From assembly GCA_014380365.1 (NCBI GenBank), contig JACMJZ010000029.1:62001-126000 (forward strand): a DNA stretch of 64,000 bases, written 5' to 3'. Below are positions 22,035 through 61,690 of the stretch, piece by piece; position 1 is the stretch's first letter, and each line of letters opens with the position of its first letter. The position numbers and the translations under genes were made by a program. Source of the DNA: Pyrinomonadaceae bacterium. GTDB taxonomy: Bacteria > Acidobacteriota > Blastocatellia > Pyrinomonadales > Pyrinomonadaceae. The notes under the pieces are model-generated. The model ran no database searches and was not told the DNA's origin. It worked only from the letters and a program-made list of their open reading frames with translations.

Positions 22035-23897
22035 CTAACGGACGAGCTCGCGGCGAGTGAAGAGAAGCAAGTCTACGCCCGGTCGCAACGCAAAACTACC
22101 AGCGACATTGAAACCGGAATGAACCTGTTGATAGCGGTCACCAAAAGTAGCCTCAACTTCTGCGACCTGACCTGCCGAAGCAATGATGACGGGCTCGCTT
22201 GATGGGCTCATCCGGCCGTAGTAGCCCACGCGAGTGTAGTTGCGCAGGTACCAGGGCAACGGCCAATAGTCGCCGGAAACTACTGTGATTCCCATTTGAC
22301 CTCCCTGGCGCGTGCGTTGGGCCAACTGATCAATCAGTTCGACTAGTTCTAGTGTCTCTCGACGGGTGTGTGCGTAAACGTAAACGTAATACCGAGCGTC
22401 GTTGTCGTAGTTTATGAAGTTGAGATCGACTGTCTGGTAACCAGGAATTAGCGTCTTCCAACGGGGTTCTCGTTTGATTGCCTCGAGGGCGATATCCGGA
22501 TCGAACCACTTCTCCTCGCGCATGACTCGCTCGAACGTCGCCATCAAAAATGGTAGCGGCCCGATCAGTGCCAGCAGAAGAACGGCAACCGCGCAGGCGC
22601 GCCCACCTGGACTCATGCGCCATTCTCCAAGTTCGTCATAGAGCCACTGAACTCCGACTCCACTGACGAGCGCTAACGGAACGATAAAGTTTAGTGAGAG
22701 CCACGGCGTCTTATATTTAATCAACGAGTAGGCGGCCATGAGCCCGAAAGCCCAGAACGCCGAGAAAAGCATGAAAGGCTTGACGGGTTTGAGGAGTGCG
22801 ACAAGGGCGCCCACAACTCCCAACAACAAGAGCGGCGACTCCTGCAGCAGCAGCCACCAAATGTAGGTAACGAAGGGATGAACATGGGCTGTCGCGCCGG
22901 TCTTAGTCCAAAACTCAAAAGTCTTCAGAGCATCTGTCACACCTTTCGGATAGTTCTTGAAAAAGGATGAGTAGAAAACAACGCTGACCAAAAAAAAGAC
23001 CGCGATCGCTACCGCCAGCCAGAGGATTATTTTTCCTGGCCCACCCGCTCTTTCGAGAAATTCGGTCCATCCACTTTCCGGCCGCGAACCGCGACGCTTC
23101 TTTTTCCCGGCGGTAGAAGGTGCGAAAGCCACGGAGCCGATTCCAAGTGAACGCTGGATAGCGCGGTAAATGAACGTACAAACCAGCGCGATCACCAGGA
23201 CCGCAGCGGAAATTACCGCAGTCTCTTTAGTTGCAAAGAGAAGCGCTGCCGACACCGCTCCGAGGACTAAATAAACGGGATGGGATTGCTCGTAATATCG
23301 CAGGAGAACTACAACAATGCCCAGAGTAAAGAAGACAAAGAGACTCTCATGAATAAAGTAGCGCGAGAGATAGACAGCTCCAGGGGAGATTGCCAATAGG
23401 CCCGCCGCGGTGAGCGTGGCGATCGTGCCCAGATTTCGGCGCAGAGTGAACACCAGGCCAACAGTTCCCAAGCCAAACAGCGCCGGCACGCACCTGATTG
23501 CCACCGTGGTAAGCCCATAACTGTTTTGCGCATTGGGGCCGGCAAAGAGCCTCAACAGCCAGGGAAAGACAGCCGCGAAGTAATAGAGCGTGGGCCCATG
23601 GTAGTTTCCGGGATCGTAAGTGTATTTCCCTTGGCGTACGAGCGTCAGCAGGAAATTGCCGTTTACGCCCTCGTCGTGATGAAGTGGAACCAGATCCAGA
23701 TCGTAGAAACGCAGATAAGCAGCTACGCCCAGGATCGCGACGCACGCGATCAGCCAGGTCAGTCGGGAGATGTCTGATCCGGCGGCAACGTCAGGCGAGA
23801 GTGGTTCCCCTGGGCTAGTGATCGCTCCCACTGCCCTGCTCGAACCAGGTGGACTGTCGTTCTTACCTTTGCCCGATTTTGTAGAGGCGGTACTCAC
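22035..23897 (-). CDS. GT-C-type membrane protein, Agl23-like (TIGR03663) family
   Basis: A 620-residue integral membrane protein with about 10-12 membrane segments. The luminal-facing loop after the first segment carries LVPLHHDEGVNGNFLL, the acidic DE motif typical of GT-C glycosyltransferases that use polyprenyl-linked sugars, followed by a NYHGPTLYY block typical of the group called flippase activity-associated protein Agl23. It probably transfers a sugar at the outer face of the inner membrane. Start GTG 23897 follows GGGAGA and overlaps the previous gene by 35 nt, so the pair is coupled. Substrate unknown. Confidence 0.75.
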   Translation of the reverse strand: MSTASTKSGKGKNDSPPGSSRAVGAITSPGEPLSPDVAAGSDISRLTWLIACVAILGVAAYLRFYDLDLVPLHHDEGVNGNFLLTLVRQGKYTYDPGNYHGPTLYYFAAVFPWLLRLFAGPNAQNSYGLTTVAIRCVPALFGLGTVGLVFTLRRNLGTIATLTAAGLLAISPGAVYLSRYFIHESLFVFFTLGIVVVLLRYYEQSHPVYLVLGAVSAALLFATKETAVISAAVLVIALVCTFIYRAIQRSLGIGSVAFAPSTAGKKKRRGSRPESGWTEFLERAGGPGKIILWLAVAIAVFFLVSVVFYSSFFKNYPKGVTDALKTFEFWTKTGATAHVHPFVTYIWWLLLQESPLLLLGVVGALVALLKPVKPFMLFSAFWAFGLMAAYSLIKYKTPWLSLNFIVPLALVSGVGVQWLYDELGEWRMSPGGRACAVAVLLLALIGPLPFLMATFERVMREEKWFDPDIALEAIKREPRWKTLIPGYQTVDLNFINYDNDARYYVYVYAHTRRETLELVELIDQLAQRTRQGGQMGITVVSGDYWPLPWYLRNYTRVGYYGRMSPSSEPVIIASAGQVAEVEATFGDRYQQVHSGFNVAGSFALRPGVDLLLFTRRELVR

Positions 23898-26061
23898 CTA
23901 CGTCTCCCACGATTTCAAATTTTGAAAAATACTGCTCGTTCACGATCATGATATTGCGTTCAAGTGGACTGGCCACAACATATTCGATTCCGTACTTTCG
24001 CATCAGCTCTGCCGCATCCGGACTACCCGCATAGATTCTCTTGATTTCAGATTCTCTTTGGAGGTAATCGAGACCGTGGGTCCAGATGTGCCCCGGATAA
24101 CCCATCAGAGATCTTCTTCCGGTAAGAAACACCGGATGATTATGAACCGGAGCGTGCATGACCAGCGACCTCGGCGCAGTTTGCTGTTTGATCAATTCAG
24201 CAAACTGTACTCCGGGCGAGTCAAACACCTGATACTTGCTAGATCTCCACACAATGGCCGCTACGTCCAATGCTCCGGCCGTGGTTACACACGCAAATAG
24301 AATCACGGCAAGGGCCTTCTTAAGTCCGCCCTTTTGCCACCAGCGTGCAAGGAGGATCGCCACCAGTGGCGCTGACGCAAGCCACCAGTAGAACAACACT
24401 TTTATGTTATCCCAAATCCAGGGCGCCATTTTCAAGACATTCGGAACGATGAAACACAAACTGAACGGCAACAGGAAAATCACCACTCTGCGAGAAACTA
24501 GATACTCCCTTTTGCTACGCCAAATAATTGCTGCGATAGTCAGGGGAATAAACAAACCCGTATTCTTGAGCCAGAACGCGAGCGCGGCTTCCTTTCCCCG
24601 GTCCCAGCCAAACTGCCACGCAAAAAATTTACTTGAGTCAACCGCGCTGTTGTGCGTAGACCACCACATTTGTGGCAGCGCGATTATTAGTACGGCCACG
24701 AAGAAGGCGGTCCAGGAAATCATTTGACCTCGCGGCAAAAGAATCCAGGCTACCAAAGCGCCTACTGCCGCCAACCCAAGGATCGCGATGTTTTGATTCA
24801 GCCGTGGCAACTGTGGATAGCTGTAGTAAGTAAGCGCAATCAAAGGCAAAGCGCCAATCGCGATCGCCAGCCACGAACGCCAGTGAGTTCCCAGGGCAAT
24901 GCATCCAGCCACCATCATGATCACTACGAAGCTGTGCGCGTGTACTAACGGCAGAAGTCCGGCGATGATCCCGGCCGCAATCATCCGCTGCCACGAAGAG
25001 ACGCTGAGACGCGGAGACGCGGGGACGCGGAGATCGCTCCTTCGTTTTGCAACAGCTTGCTTTTTCTTTTGAGACTTCTCGCGTTTGTTTTCCTTCGCCG
25101 CGTCTCCGTGTTCCCCCGTCTCCGCCTCAGCCGTTGCTAGCCACCATTGCGTAAAGACAATCACCGCTAGCGGCAGCCCCAACAGGAAACCGCGCTGAGG
25201 AATCAGTAACGTCGAAACTGCATTCCCCCAACGCCAAGTCGTGTCTGGAATAACGGTAAACGACGGCGGCAAGCTCTGAACGAAAGCGGCAAAGTCGCCG
25301 AAGTGCTCGTTAGCCCGCCTCCACAAAAATATCCACCCGAATCCGCCGTTAAGAATAACTAGCAATGGCGTGATGATCGCCGCCAGCCGGTCGCGCAGCA
25401 TCACCAGCGCCCAGCGATGGAGCAAACCGACGAAAGCAAGTGCGACCGCGAAGTTTTCGATAAACATCGCGTGACGCAGATCGGCGCCGCAGCGAACGAA
25501 GATGGCGGAGACAAAGTCAGTGAGAAATGGATACGTGAACCGGGCGCCCGCGAACGTCGGATCTTCCGGCAAAAAGTTATTTCCGTAGGCGAAGCTCGTG
25601 ATGACGCTAATGTGAAACGGGAGATCGCCGAAGTTGTTCAGCACGCCGGTGAATATGCCTTCAGGCGTCACAATCATCGCGCGTCGAAAAACGAGCCAAA
25701 GAATCAAGGCGACGAGCGTGTAGAAAACAATGTAGCCAATTGGAAGACGGCTGGGATCGTGAAGTCCCTGCCGAACGGCGCGAGACGTCGCCCGCAGGTC
25801 CTGCTTAACAGTTCTCCGGCGATTCGCATCCTTCAATACCAGGAGTGGCAGGACAGTTATGAAGAGCGCTGACAGCAGGATCGACAGCGGCGTCAGCCCG
25901 AGGAACGAAGCAAAGACAAAGGTAACTAATCCGAGCGCGGTGATTCCGATGCAGACTCCGCCGCAGAGCCGCGCAGCGAAATTGGCGTCTTCATCGTAGA
26001 GGTAACTGACCAATGTGCCGCCGGCGGTGGCGAGCAGCACTAGCGCAAGCGAGATGATCAC
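23863..26061 (-). CDS. multi-pass membrane protein, putative GT-C-like glycosyltransferase
   Basis: A 732-residue protein with at least 12 hydrophobic segments. Loop motifs such as NNFGDLPFHISVITSF, and a C-terminal soluble end with KYGIEYVVASPLE, recall polyprenol-phosphate-sugar-dependent transferases, but I cannot name the family. It is first in a two-gene operon with the Agl23-like gene. A feature worth notice is residues 312-355: a very charged loop (KENKREKSQKKKQ) coded by an inverted-repeat element inserted in frame. The start ATG at 26061 is supported by hydrophobic sequence directly after it. Confidence 0.7.
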   Translation of the reverse strand: MIISLALVLLATAGGTLVSYLYDEDANFAARLCGGVCIGITALGLVTFVFASFLGLTPLSILLSALFITVLPLLVLKDANRRRTVKQDLRATSRAVRQGLHDPSRLPIGYIVFYTLVALILWLVFRRAMIVTPEGIFTGVLNNFGDLPFHISVITSFAYGNNFLPEDPTFAGARFTYPFLTDFVSAIFVRCGADLRHAMFIENFAVALAFVGLLHRWALVMLRDRLAAIITPLLVILNGGFGWIFLWRRANEHFGDFAAFVQSLPPSFTVIPDTTWRWGNAVSTLLIPQRGFLLGLPLAVIVFTQWWLATAEAETGEHGDAAKENKREKSQKKKQAVAKRRSDLRVPASPRLSVSSWQRMIAAGIIAGLLPLVHAHSFVVIMMVAGCIALGTHWRSWLAIAIGALPLIALTYYSYPQLPRLNQNIAILGLAAVGALVAWILLPRGQMISWTAFFVAVLIIALPQMWWSTHNSAVDSSKFFAWQFGWDRGKEAALAFWLKNTGLFIPLTIAAIIWRSKREYLVSRRVVIFLLPFSLCFIVPNVLKMAPWIWDNIKVLFYWWLASAPLVAILLARWWQKGGLKKALAVILFACVTTAGALDVAAIVWRSSKYQVFDSPGVQFAELIKQQTAPRSLVMHAPVHNHPVFLTGRRSLMGYPGHIWTHGLDYLQRESEIKRIYAGSPDAAELMRKYGIEYVVASPLERNIMIVNEQYFSKFEIVGDVGEYRLYKIGQR
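24998..25128. repeat. in-frame inverted repeat of GAGACGCGG-type words
   Basis: Arms 24998-25033 and 25096-25128 consist of GAGACGCGGAGACGCGG-like words and their complement. They lie entirely within the membrane-protein gene without breaking its frame. The same family fills 34855-34929. Confidence 0.8.
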
Positions 26062-31775: not shown

Positions 31776-31861
31776 AATCAGAACCGGGAGCAGTAGCGAC
31801 CGGGTTGGGGCGACTATTATCACCCTGTCCTACCCGTTCGCTACTACTCCCGGTTCTGATT
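31776..31861. repeat. 30-nt-arm inverted repeat at the end of the peptidase gene
   Basis: Arms 31776-31805 and 31832-31861 match 28 of 30 as reverse complements. The right arm ends at the base next to the peptidase's TAG. It could act as a strong transcript-end hairpin. The rest of 31649-31775 holds nothing I can name. Confidence 0.9.
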
Positions 31862-34854: not shown

Positions 34855-34929
34855 GAGACGCGGAGAGTGGGCGACGCGGGGAAACGGAGATCTTATTCTC
34901 TCCCCGCGTCGCCGCGTCTCACTGTCTCC
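34855..34929. repeat. GAGACGCGG-type inverted repeat
   Basis: Arms about 34855-34890 and 34899-34929. The right arm extends into the last codons of the sigma-54-type regulator, so that gene's C-terminal tail ([12 protein letters not shown]) is coded by the repeat. Confidence 0.8.
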
Positions 34930-35879
34930 CCTTCAGTTTCATCCTCTCCCGATGATCCTTTCCTTCGTCGCGCCAGCTTCTCGTAGAGATTCTTGCGACT
35001 GATGCCGAGTATGCGCGCGGCTTCCGTCTTGTTCCCGTTGGAGGCTGCCAGTATTTCCTCGACATACTCCGCTTCAACTTCGGCGAGCGACGGTGGCTGC
35101 GCTCGTCGACTTTGCATGAGCACGGTTGCTCGAATTGGCTCCGGCAAGTCTCTCACTTCTATTCGCGGTCCAGCCGCGATGATCACGGCCCGCTCAATAG
35201 TGTTGGCGAGCTCGCGCACGTTTCCGGGAAACTCATACTTGCCGAGCAGCGACAGCGCCTCAGCCGACACAGCGTCTACCTGCCGTCCATGCTTTGCGGC
35301 GTAGGACGTGACAAAGGCATCGGCCAATTCGGCTAAATCTTCGGTGCGTTCGCGCAACGGCGGCACCTGAATGTGGACTACGTTCAACCGGTAATACAGG
35401 TCTTCGCGAAAATTTTGGCGCTTGACCGCATCGCTCAAGTCCACATTGGTCAGGGCAATCAAACGCGCGTCCACTTTGATTGTTCGCCTGCCGCCCAATC
35501 GCTCAAACTCCCGCGTCTCGATCACCCGCAGGAGTTTCGCCTGCGAATCGTTGGACAGATAGGCAATTTCGTCGAGGACCAAAGTTCCTCGATGGGCAGC
35601 TTCGAGTCGCCCCGGCTTCTCTTCGCTCGCGCCGGTGAAAGCCCCGCGCTCGTATCCGAAGAGCTCGGCTTCCAGCAAACCGCTTGGAAGCGTAGCGCAG
35701 TCGATCTTCACAAACGACTGGGTGGCGCGATTTGATTTCGAGTGAATGTGAAACGCCAGCACGTCTTTACCCGCGCCGGATTCTCCCGTCACCAAAACGT
35801 TCGCATCCGTCGCAGCAACCCGCTCGGCGAGACTGACCGCCTCACGCATCGCTTCAGAACGCGCCACCAGCTCAATCAC
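34893..35879 (-). CDS. sigma-54-dependent-type transcriptional regulator without sensor domain
   Basis: 328 residues. The AAA+ activator domain starts at once: Walker [12 protein letters not shown] (about 33-43), [10 protein letters not shown] (the GAFTGA loop that contacts sigma-54), Walker [11 protein letters not shown], and the [12 protein letters not shown] and GNVREL blocks. A Fis-type helix-turn-helix ([20 protein letters not shown]) follows. There is no receiver or GAF domain, so control must come from elsewhere. Its ATG overlaps rsfS's stop by 4 nt (ATGA), so it is coupled to ribosome-linked genes. No rpoN is in this window. Confidence 0.9.
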
Positions 35880-52238: not shown

Positions 52239-52330
52239 CTCAATCCTCGTCTTTGCCTGTCCGACAAACTTTAGTTTGTCGTGCCTTCCATCGGCTTGGC
52301 GCGCGACAAACTAAAGTTTGTCGGACTTCA
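52239..52330. repeat. perfect 23-nt inverted repeat (rplX-rplE)
   Basis: Arms 52259-52281 and 52304-52326 are perfect reverse complements (23 of 23), and each arm is itself almost a palindrome around CAAACTTTAGTTTG. The right arm ends 4 nt from rplX's stop. Confidence 0.95.
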
Positions 52331-57059: not shown

Positions 57060-57145
57060 AGTTTCGAGTTTCAAGTTTCGGGTTTCAAGTTTTCATCGTC
57101 CCGAGTTTCTCTTAACTTGAAACTCGAAACTTGAAACTCGAAACT
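57060..57145. repeat. inverted repeat, GTTTCGAGTTTCAA words (rplW-rplB)
   Basis: Arms 57060-57091 and 57114-57145 match 31 of 32 as reverse complements. The right arm runs into rplW's stop codon (57144-57146). Confidence 0.95.
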
Positions 57146-61373: not shown

Positions 61374-61537
61374 GTCGCAGTGGAAATTGCAGATACCTCA
61401 GCACCTTCCACTGTTCACTCAAGCGCGGAGTCGGATGAATCTGAGTTTCTTTGGTTGTGCGCCAGCCAGGATTGAGTATCGGTGAAACGTCTTCGAACTG
61501 CAAACGCGGCGGAAGGAAACGTAGCAGTTTGTCTTCT

Positions 61538-61643
61538 TCTCTGTGCGTCCTCTGTGTCCTCTGTGCCTCTGTGGTGAGTCTTTATTCCGATTATTCACCA
61601 CCGAGACACAGTGGACACAGAGGACACAGAGGACGCACAGAGA
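61538..61643. repeat. inverted repeat of CACAGAGG-type words
   Basis: Arms about 61538-61577 and 61595-61643 consist of CCTCTGTG and CACAGAGG words. It lies between the tRNA cluster promoter and pgsA's 3' end; the remaining part of 61374-61690 holds nothing I can name. Confidence 0.85.
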
Positions 61644-61690
61644 AAACCGGCAGTCAGGAGCGATCGAGCCTGGGCTGTCGCAGATTTAAG

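Follow-up and report, generated by a model that had tools for sequence, protein, structure and literature searches.

An in-frame palindromic element in a membrane-protein gene

Can dispersed palindromic DNA enter a protein-coding gene and supply it with a new loop? This question arises from a 64,000-nt stretch of a Pyrinomonadaceae genome (phylum Acidobacteriota; the stretch is hereafter the window), where an inverted repeat lies inside a gene for a 732-amino-acid multi-helix membrane protein (23863–26061, minus strand, GTG start). The element, here called type 1, occupies 24998–25128 and is a degenerate inverted repeat built from 8-nt GAGACGCG-like units. As the open reading frame runs uninterrupted from 26061 to 23863, the sequence-only reading of this locus, that a palindromic element sits in frame within a membrane-protein gene, is confirmed. 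Counting codons from 26061, bases 25128 to 24998 correspond to residues 312–355, with neither a stop codon nor a frameshift.

The arms at 25008–25033 and 25103–25128 are 26 nt long, 85% complementary and 69 nt apart (alternative arms of the same element, 24998–25025 and 25095–25122, are 28 nt long and 79% complementary), and this imperfection suggests that the copy has decayed or never was perfect. Self-complementarity of the element is nonetheless far above that of shuffles of each half (inverted-repeat z 9.0), the fold predicted for the mRNA strand has an energy of −62.1 kcal/mol (z −3.6 vs. shuffles), and the period-8 tandem score is 20.5, with at most 6.0 in the remainder of the gene. Read along the mRNA, the purine-rich arm (25103–25128) comes first and codes the loop start EAETGEHGD, the 69-nt spacer (25034–25102) codes a K/R-rich loop centre, and the pyrimidine-rich arm (25008–25033), in which 8-nt tandem units are visible, codes LRVPASPRL beside the following helix. 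On inspection of the sequence, the element carries no GTAG tetranucleotide at its hairpin foot.

The unit is over-represented across the window, with eight copies of GAGACGCGG for 1.4 expected (0 of 100 shuffles reach eight), three of which fall in 24998–25128 and two in a second type-1 copy at 34855–34929 (arms of 28 nt, 79% complementary, 18 nt apart). This second copy had been described as filling a spacer, which does not hold for its right half: the latter codes the C-terminal tail of a sigma-54-type activator (34893–35879, minus strand), whose stop codon (34893–34895) lies within the type-1 element that supplies its last residues. Unrelated palindromic families also occur at 727–880, 31776–31861, 52259–52326, 57060–57145 and 61537–61644, most of them with arms made of 7–8-nt arrays (CACAGAG, GAGTTTC and others), and many such families are found in the source genome. 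As for the broader proposal that these elements can move into coding DNA and thereby provide a route to new protein loops, such DNA is indeed present in coding sequence, a charged loop being encoded here, in frame, by one member of a palindromic family that is dispersed; no movement was observed, and that the elements can move is deduced.

The loop across orthologs and its repeat classes

The membrane protein matched no Pfam or NCBIfam family. Matches to it were detected in 67 of 97 related genomes (every genome compared is a draft or metagenome assembly), with orthologs in nearly all same-family genomes searched. Its loop is flanked by an invariant ...FTQWW (the helix end reads ...FTQWWLAT here) and a conserved RRMIAAG. 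The loop segment is net positive in 51 of the 67 aligned homologs, which, under the positive-inside rule, suggests a cytoplasmic location; a structure model of the protein (mean pLDDT 53.6) was too poor to place the loop.

If the element had created the loop, orthologs without it should lack exactly this loop. This prediction fails, since nearly all same-family orthologs have a loop, with an interval of 30–90 residues. Where the closest relatives lack an inverted repeat, 37–43 loop residues are still present vs. 55 in the source genome, and on these lengths a single simple insertion into an empty loop is rejected for this gene. We saw no empty version of the site, as even these relatives keep a loop of their own. 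In orthologs of another bacterial family and in most paralogs, the interval is short (16–23 residues). Judging from these alignments, a long loop is typical of this bacterial family, and its content is variable. The outcome comes close to the one that the sequence-only reading had named as contrary to its own view, a loop retained with unrelated DNA, except that the unrelated DNA consists mostly of other palindromic or tandem repeats. The site thus looks repeatedly refilled, rather than being the product of one insertion.

Significant inverted repeats (z ≥ 4.6, where z is the number of standard deviations above shuffles of each loop half) were detected in 19 of the 52 long loops (18 orthologs and one paralog), with z from 4.6 to 17. 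To control for the purine-then-pyrimidine make-up of these loops, right halves were swapped among homologs: the pairing of each loop's own left and right halves summed to 619, vs. 404 ± 19 for swapped right halves (maximum 503.5 over 20,000 permutations, which, like our other permutation tests, ignore shared ancestry), so that within each species the two arms match each other. In 25 of 52 genes, the loop has a higher tandem score than any other window. The remaining 33 long loops, including those of a whole subclade (G003, G015, G005 and G011), lack a significant inverted repeat; in some loops the two arms differ in type, or one of them is missing.

Overall, 34 of 54 loops could be assigned to 13 repeat-unit classes (20 fit none), about eight of which are clearly distinct, some classes being interrelated. 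Inverted repeats of other sequence make up the loop DNA in many species: AAAAGGGG-like units are found in G006, G007 and G029, GCGCAAA-like ones in G017, AAAAGGC-like ones in G026 and G044, GGGACAA-like ones in G020 and AAGTGAAA-like ones in G046 and G051, and G058 has a 30-nt hairpin type. Sister species often differ: three members of one genus (G017, G044 and G058) carry types 3, 4 and 5, respectively, type 4 in G026 contrasts with a type-1/10-like array in G050, and type 1 in G000 with type 2 in G006. Mapped on the tree, the classes change at least 25 times, vs. 32.5 for shuffled labels. A GGGGAGAC-type inverted repeat also occupies the equivalent loop of a paralog in G048 (L095), which makes this a hot site among the paralogs as well.

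Two other features of this gene were observed. A 46-residue helical hairpin (24718–24855, residues 403–448) is missing in almost all orthologs, only G017 (L044) having a comparable one, of 54 residues, at nearly that place; this hairpin is not repeat-derived. In the G008 ortholog (L049), the upstream frame stops within the loop, beyond which the gene continues in another frame, an apparent frameshift that is either a real break or an assembly error.

Repeat stock of the genomes and rarity inside genes

The loop class tends to be one that is common in its own genome. A longer type-1 pattern was found at 14 places in the 5.0-Mb source genome (0 in the control), and relatives have as many as 345 such places; reversed-pattern controls were at or near zero in this bacterial family. 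Types 4 and 5 are dispersed too, again with controls near zero. Copy numbers were higher in species whose loop is of the same type, for type 1 (p-value 0.009), type 4 (0.002) and type 2 (0.001), as estimated by one-sided Mann-Whitney tests that ignore relatedness; the control offers no information on type 2, whose AAAGGGGAA... pattern, when reversed, is nearly the same repeat. Similarly, type 3 occurs at 36 places in G017 (vs. 2 in the control), and the type of the G058 loop at 23 places in the G058 genome.

Insertions into coding sequence are otherwise rare, inverted repeats lying mainly between genes. Sampling 464 kb of the source genome and 400 kb of G029, with genes called by a simple codon-usage script, we detected 69 and 149 strong inverted repeats, respectively, and none in locally shuffled sequence. 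Only 3 of the 69 lay wholly within predicted genes (70% expected by chance, P about 1e-30), and 0 of the 149 did so in G029 (64% expected, P about 1e-67). No preference for sites between convergent genes, as a terminator role would lead one to expect, was seen, the context of the elements tracking the intergenic share of bases.

Recurrence is seen at further protein segments. In another clade, a second loop of the membrane protein (around residues 513–528) is occupied by arrays that fall into at least seven classes, with inverted-repeat z of 7.2–7.6 in G038, G053 and G059 and one-armed arrays in others. In the source genome, the few coding cases besides the membrane protein are a BchH/CobN-like gene and a PBP2-SpoIID/LytB-like gene. 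The latter (C33:235258-238041, or L231:15258-18041) contains an in-frame palindromic element, which makes up most of a segment of ~55–60 residues near residue 640 that is missing from the nearest orthologs (G004, G006 and G012). Two linkers of this protein carry different in-frame palindromic elements in G000, G001, G007, G013, G017, G067 and G068, and are short in others (L252–L264 compared). Orthologs without an element lack the extra residues in the second of these linkers, which is not so for the membrane-protein loop, and the PBP2-SpoIID-like gene is the cleanest case of palindromic DNA that has entered coding sequence.

Origin of the loop repeats and related systems

The element lies in frame, repeats of its kind are dispersed, different types recur at the one loop, and such repeats are rare in genes elsewhere; together, these observations are very probably best described as repeated acquisition of repeat DNA at a tolerated loop site. 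We infer that each switch of type was a separate acquisition, and that tolerance rather than function explains the site. The source would be the many short, dispersed and mainly intergenic inverted-repeat families, with arms of 7- or 8-nt tandem units, whose landings in genes would tend to be kept only if the reading frame stays intact and the protein can accommodate a flexible segment at that point. The loop between ...FTQWWLAT and RRMIAAG would be such a place: in the course of the family's history, it would have been filled, have lost part of its content and been filled again with unrelated types, each taken from the common stock of the genome concerned.

The build of the repeats may ease this process. 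Since neither 7 nor 8 is divisible by three, a pure array of such units yields one and the same periodic peptide whichever frame is read, and the most frequent loop types contain no stop in any of the six frames; both properties would make an insertion easier to survive. The inverted repeat also reads purine arm first on either strand, hence the peptide always runs from charged residues (E, K, R, G, D) to an S/P/L/F-rich stretch. Arms were fully open in 10 of 19 loops vs. 30 of 131 intergenic elements (15/83 in G029 and 15/48 in the source genome), a suggestive excess among loop copies that is not corrected for ancestry. The idea that intergenic elements are adapted as open reading frames is not supported, as these have fewer open frames than random intergenic DNA; with no enrichment for open frames overall, the frame advantage appears to be a filter and not a design.

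Simple transplantation does not, however, cover every case. Spacers in the loops have a median of 67 nt vs. 26–32 nt between genes, which indicates that loop copies are not simple transplants of intergenic elements, and loops with mixed types or one arm likewise fall outside whole-element insertion. Within families the arms are alike, while the spacers are near shuffled-sequence similarity in most families of the source genome (several G029 families have spacers more alike than shuffled ones). Shared arms with mostly unshared spacers argue against the copying of a complete unit and recall either REPINs or palindromes formed in place.

The most serious rival to repeated acquisition is a single ancient insertion, after which template switching between the arms of the quasi-palindrome, together with slippage, changed both arms in concert. 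This would account for arms that match within a species yet differ between sister species, and for intergenic arms of one family that flank unrelated spacers, which is not what the copying of an entire mobile unit would give. For coding palindromes of nematomorph mitochondria, template-switch conversion has been proposed (PMC6649704). Slippage and arm-to-arm copying cannot, however, import a new unit type that matches the stock of the genome. Moreover, the G058 loop holds a nearly canonical type-5 element whose 73–78 nt layout recurs many times in G029, spacers differ between types, and the similarity of spacers in several G029 families also speaks against this process. We consider it unlikely as the whole explanation, although arm conversion in place may contribute to repeated acquisition too.

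REP/REPIN-type elements mobilised by a RAYT (Y1_Tnp) transposase are a less probable source. Paired inverted arms around a variable spacer do resemble REPINs, type 5 is hairpin-like and paired, and Y1_Tnp genes occur in the source genome (7 matches) and in most relatives. Type 1, on the other hand, is an 8-mer array without the GTAG tag, and no Y1_Tnp match was found in G011, which has 117 type-1 places, in G024, which has 142 type-4 places, or in G021 and G025 (assemblies 87–93% complete). RAYT thus appears not to be required, and as a general mobiliser it is unlikely given these type-1- and type-4-rich genomes, at that level of completeness. Still less credit goes to a palindrome kept for an mRNA or DNA hairpin function (e.g., translational pausing at membrane insertion) with the peptide as a by-product: recurrence at the same place beside helix ends and an RNA hairpin predicted to be stronger than in shuffles would fit, but 33 of 52 long loops, among them the whole G003, G015, G005 and G011 subclade, have no significant inverted repeat and many have a single arm only. 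Finally, an ordinary low-complexity, K/E-rich disordered loop that only seems repetitive is very improbable, for although simple composition is common in disordered loops and no repeat is seen in some of the loops studied here, arm matching survives both shuffling within halves and swapping between homologs (which contradicts this reading for the 19 inverted-repeat loops), the loop units are dispersed through the same genomes, and in 25 of 52 genes no other window equals the tandem score of the loop.

Returning to repeated acquisition, it is tempting to speculate that tolerant loops and linkers of these bacteria are standing landing sites, at which an undescribed DNA-level process, involving neither RAYT nor the copying of a conserved unit, flanks a segment with matching arms. 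We put this forward tentatively and regard it as improbable so far; if true, protein loops would be continually rewritten from the repeat stock of the genome.

By analogy, the elements appear to be of the same kind as the Rickettsia palindromic elements (RPE) and intragenic REPs. RPE-1 and others (Ogata et al., 2000, 2002) occur in frame in genes and also between them (PMC2996958). They and similar Wolbachia elements resemble ours in being dispersed, in frame and a few tens of residues long at tolerated, unstructured places, and here too an inverted repeat in many copies lies in frame inside a gene conserved on both sides. The likeness is one of behaviour alone: our elements belong to a different phylum, comprise many unrelated families per genome with arms of 7–8-nt arrays, present about eight clearly different types at one loop across species, and are strongly depleted from genes elsewhere. 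GTAG/CGTC REPs located inside ORFs encode 20–82 residues, and the different REPs found at about the same recB site in two Xanthomonas species (Di Nocera et al., 2013, PMC3733652) are a direct precedent for recurrence at one site; unlike these, type 1 has no GTAG tag and looks RAYT-independent, and recurrence here extends across dozens of species and a dozen unit classes.

Other coding repeats are more distant. Enterobacterial RU sequences (small, mobile and MITE-like), with open frames fused into ORFs, have been proposed as a source of new peptides (Delihas, 2007, PMC2759123), but have conserved bodies of 103–168 bp, whereas spacers are mostly not conserved here. Palindromic amphipathic repeat coding elements (PARCEL), membrane-protein-associated and with coding dyad symmetry (PMC2996958), form tandem 25-residue domains conserved as protein, while in our case conservation, within a genome, is that of the DNA repeat, with the peptide as an incidental product. 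Nematomorph mitochondrial genes gain and lose coding inverted repeats between species (PMC6649704), these being long, perfect and located in conserved protein regions, and ours imperfect, dispersed and confined to variable loops. New features are the phylum, the build from 7–8-nt arrays, a single loop with this many types and species, and second and third protein segments that behave alike. A literature search, with most subscription journals outside its reach, found no published account of these Blastocatellia repeats.

In-frame palindromic elements were already known, for the most part as isolated cases spread across a genome. In the present family, dispersed and mostly non-coding repeats repeatedly become protein sequence at one spot, species after species, and by following this one loop through about 60 genomes one can measure how often protein sequence is derived from repeats, in what spectrum and with what fate. 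The loop offers a natural series on how new protein segments arise from dispersed DNA and on whether sites are chosen by tolerance or by targeting, and bears as well on the process that spreads repeats with conserved arms and unconserved spacers.

Two more genes of the source genome deserve mention. A BchH/CobN-like gene (C20:259962-262235, minus strand; identity by eye from the sequence) contains, in frame, an inverted repeat of GTCCAAA type (ASKVQSPKSKV...WTLDIGL), along with a second array that is single. The gene next to that of the membrane protein (22035–23897, minus strand), which matches TIGR03663 (Agl23-like membrane protein), likewise encodes a K/R-rich stretch (GKKKRRGSRPE), for which the same repeat test may be worthwhile.
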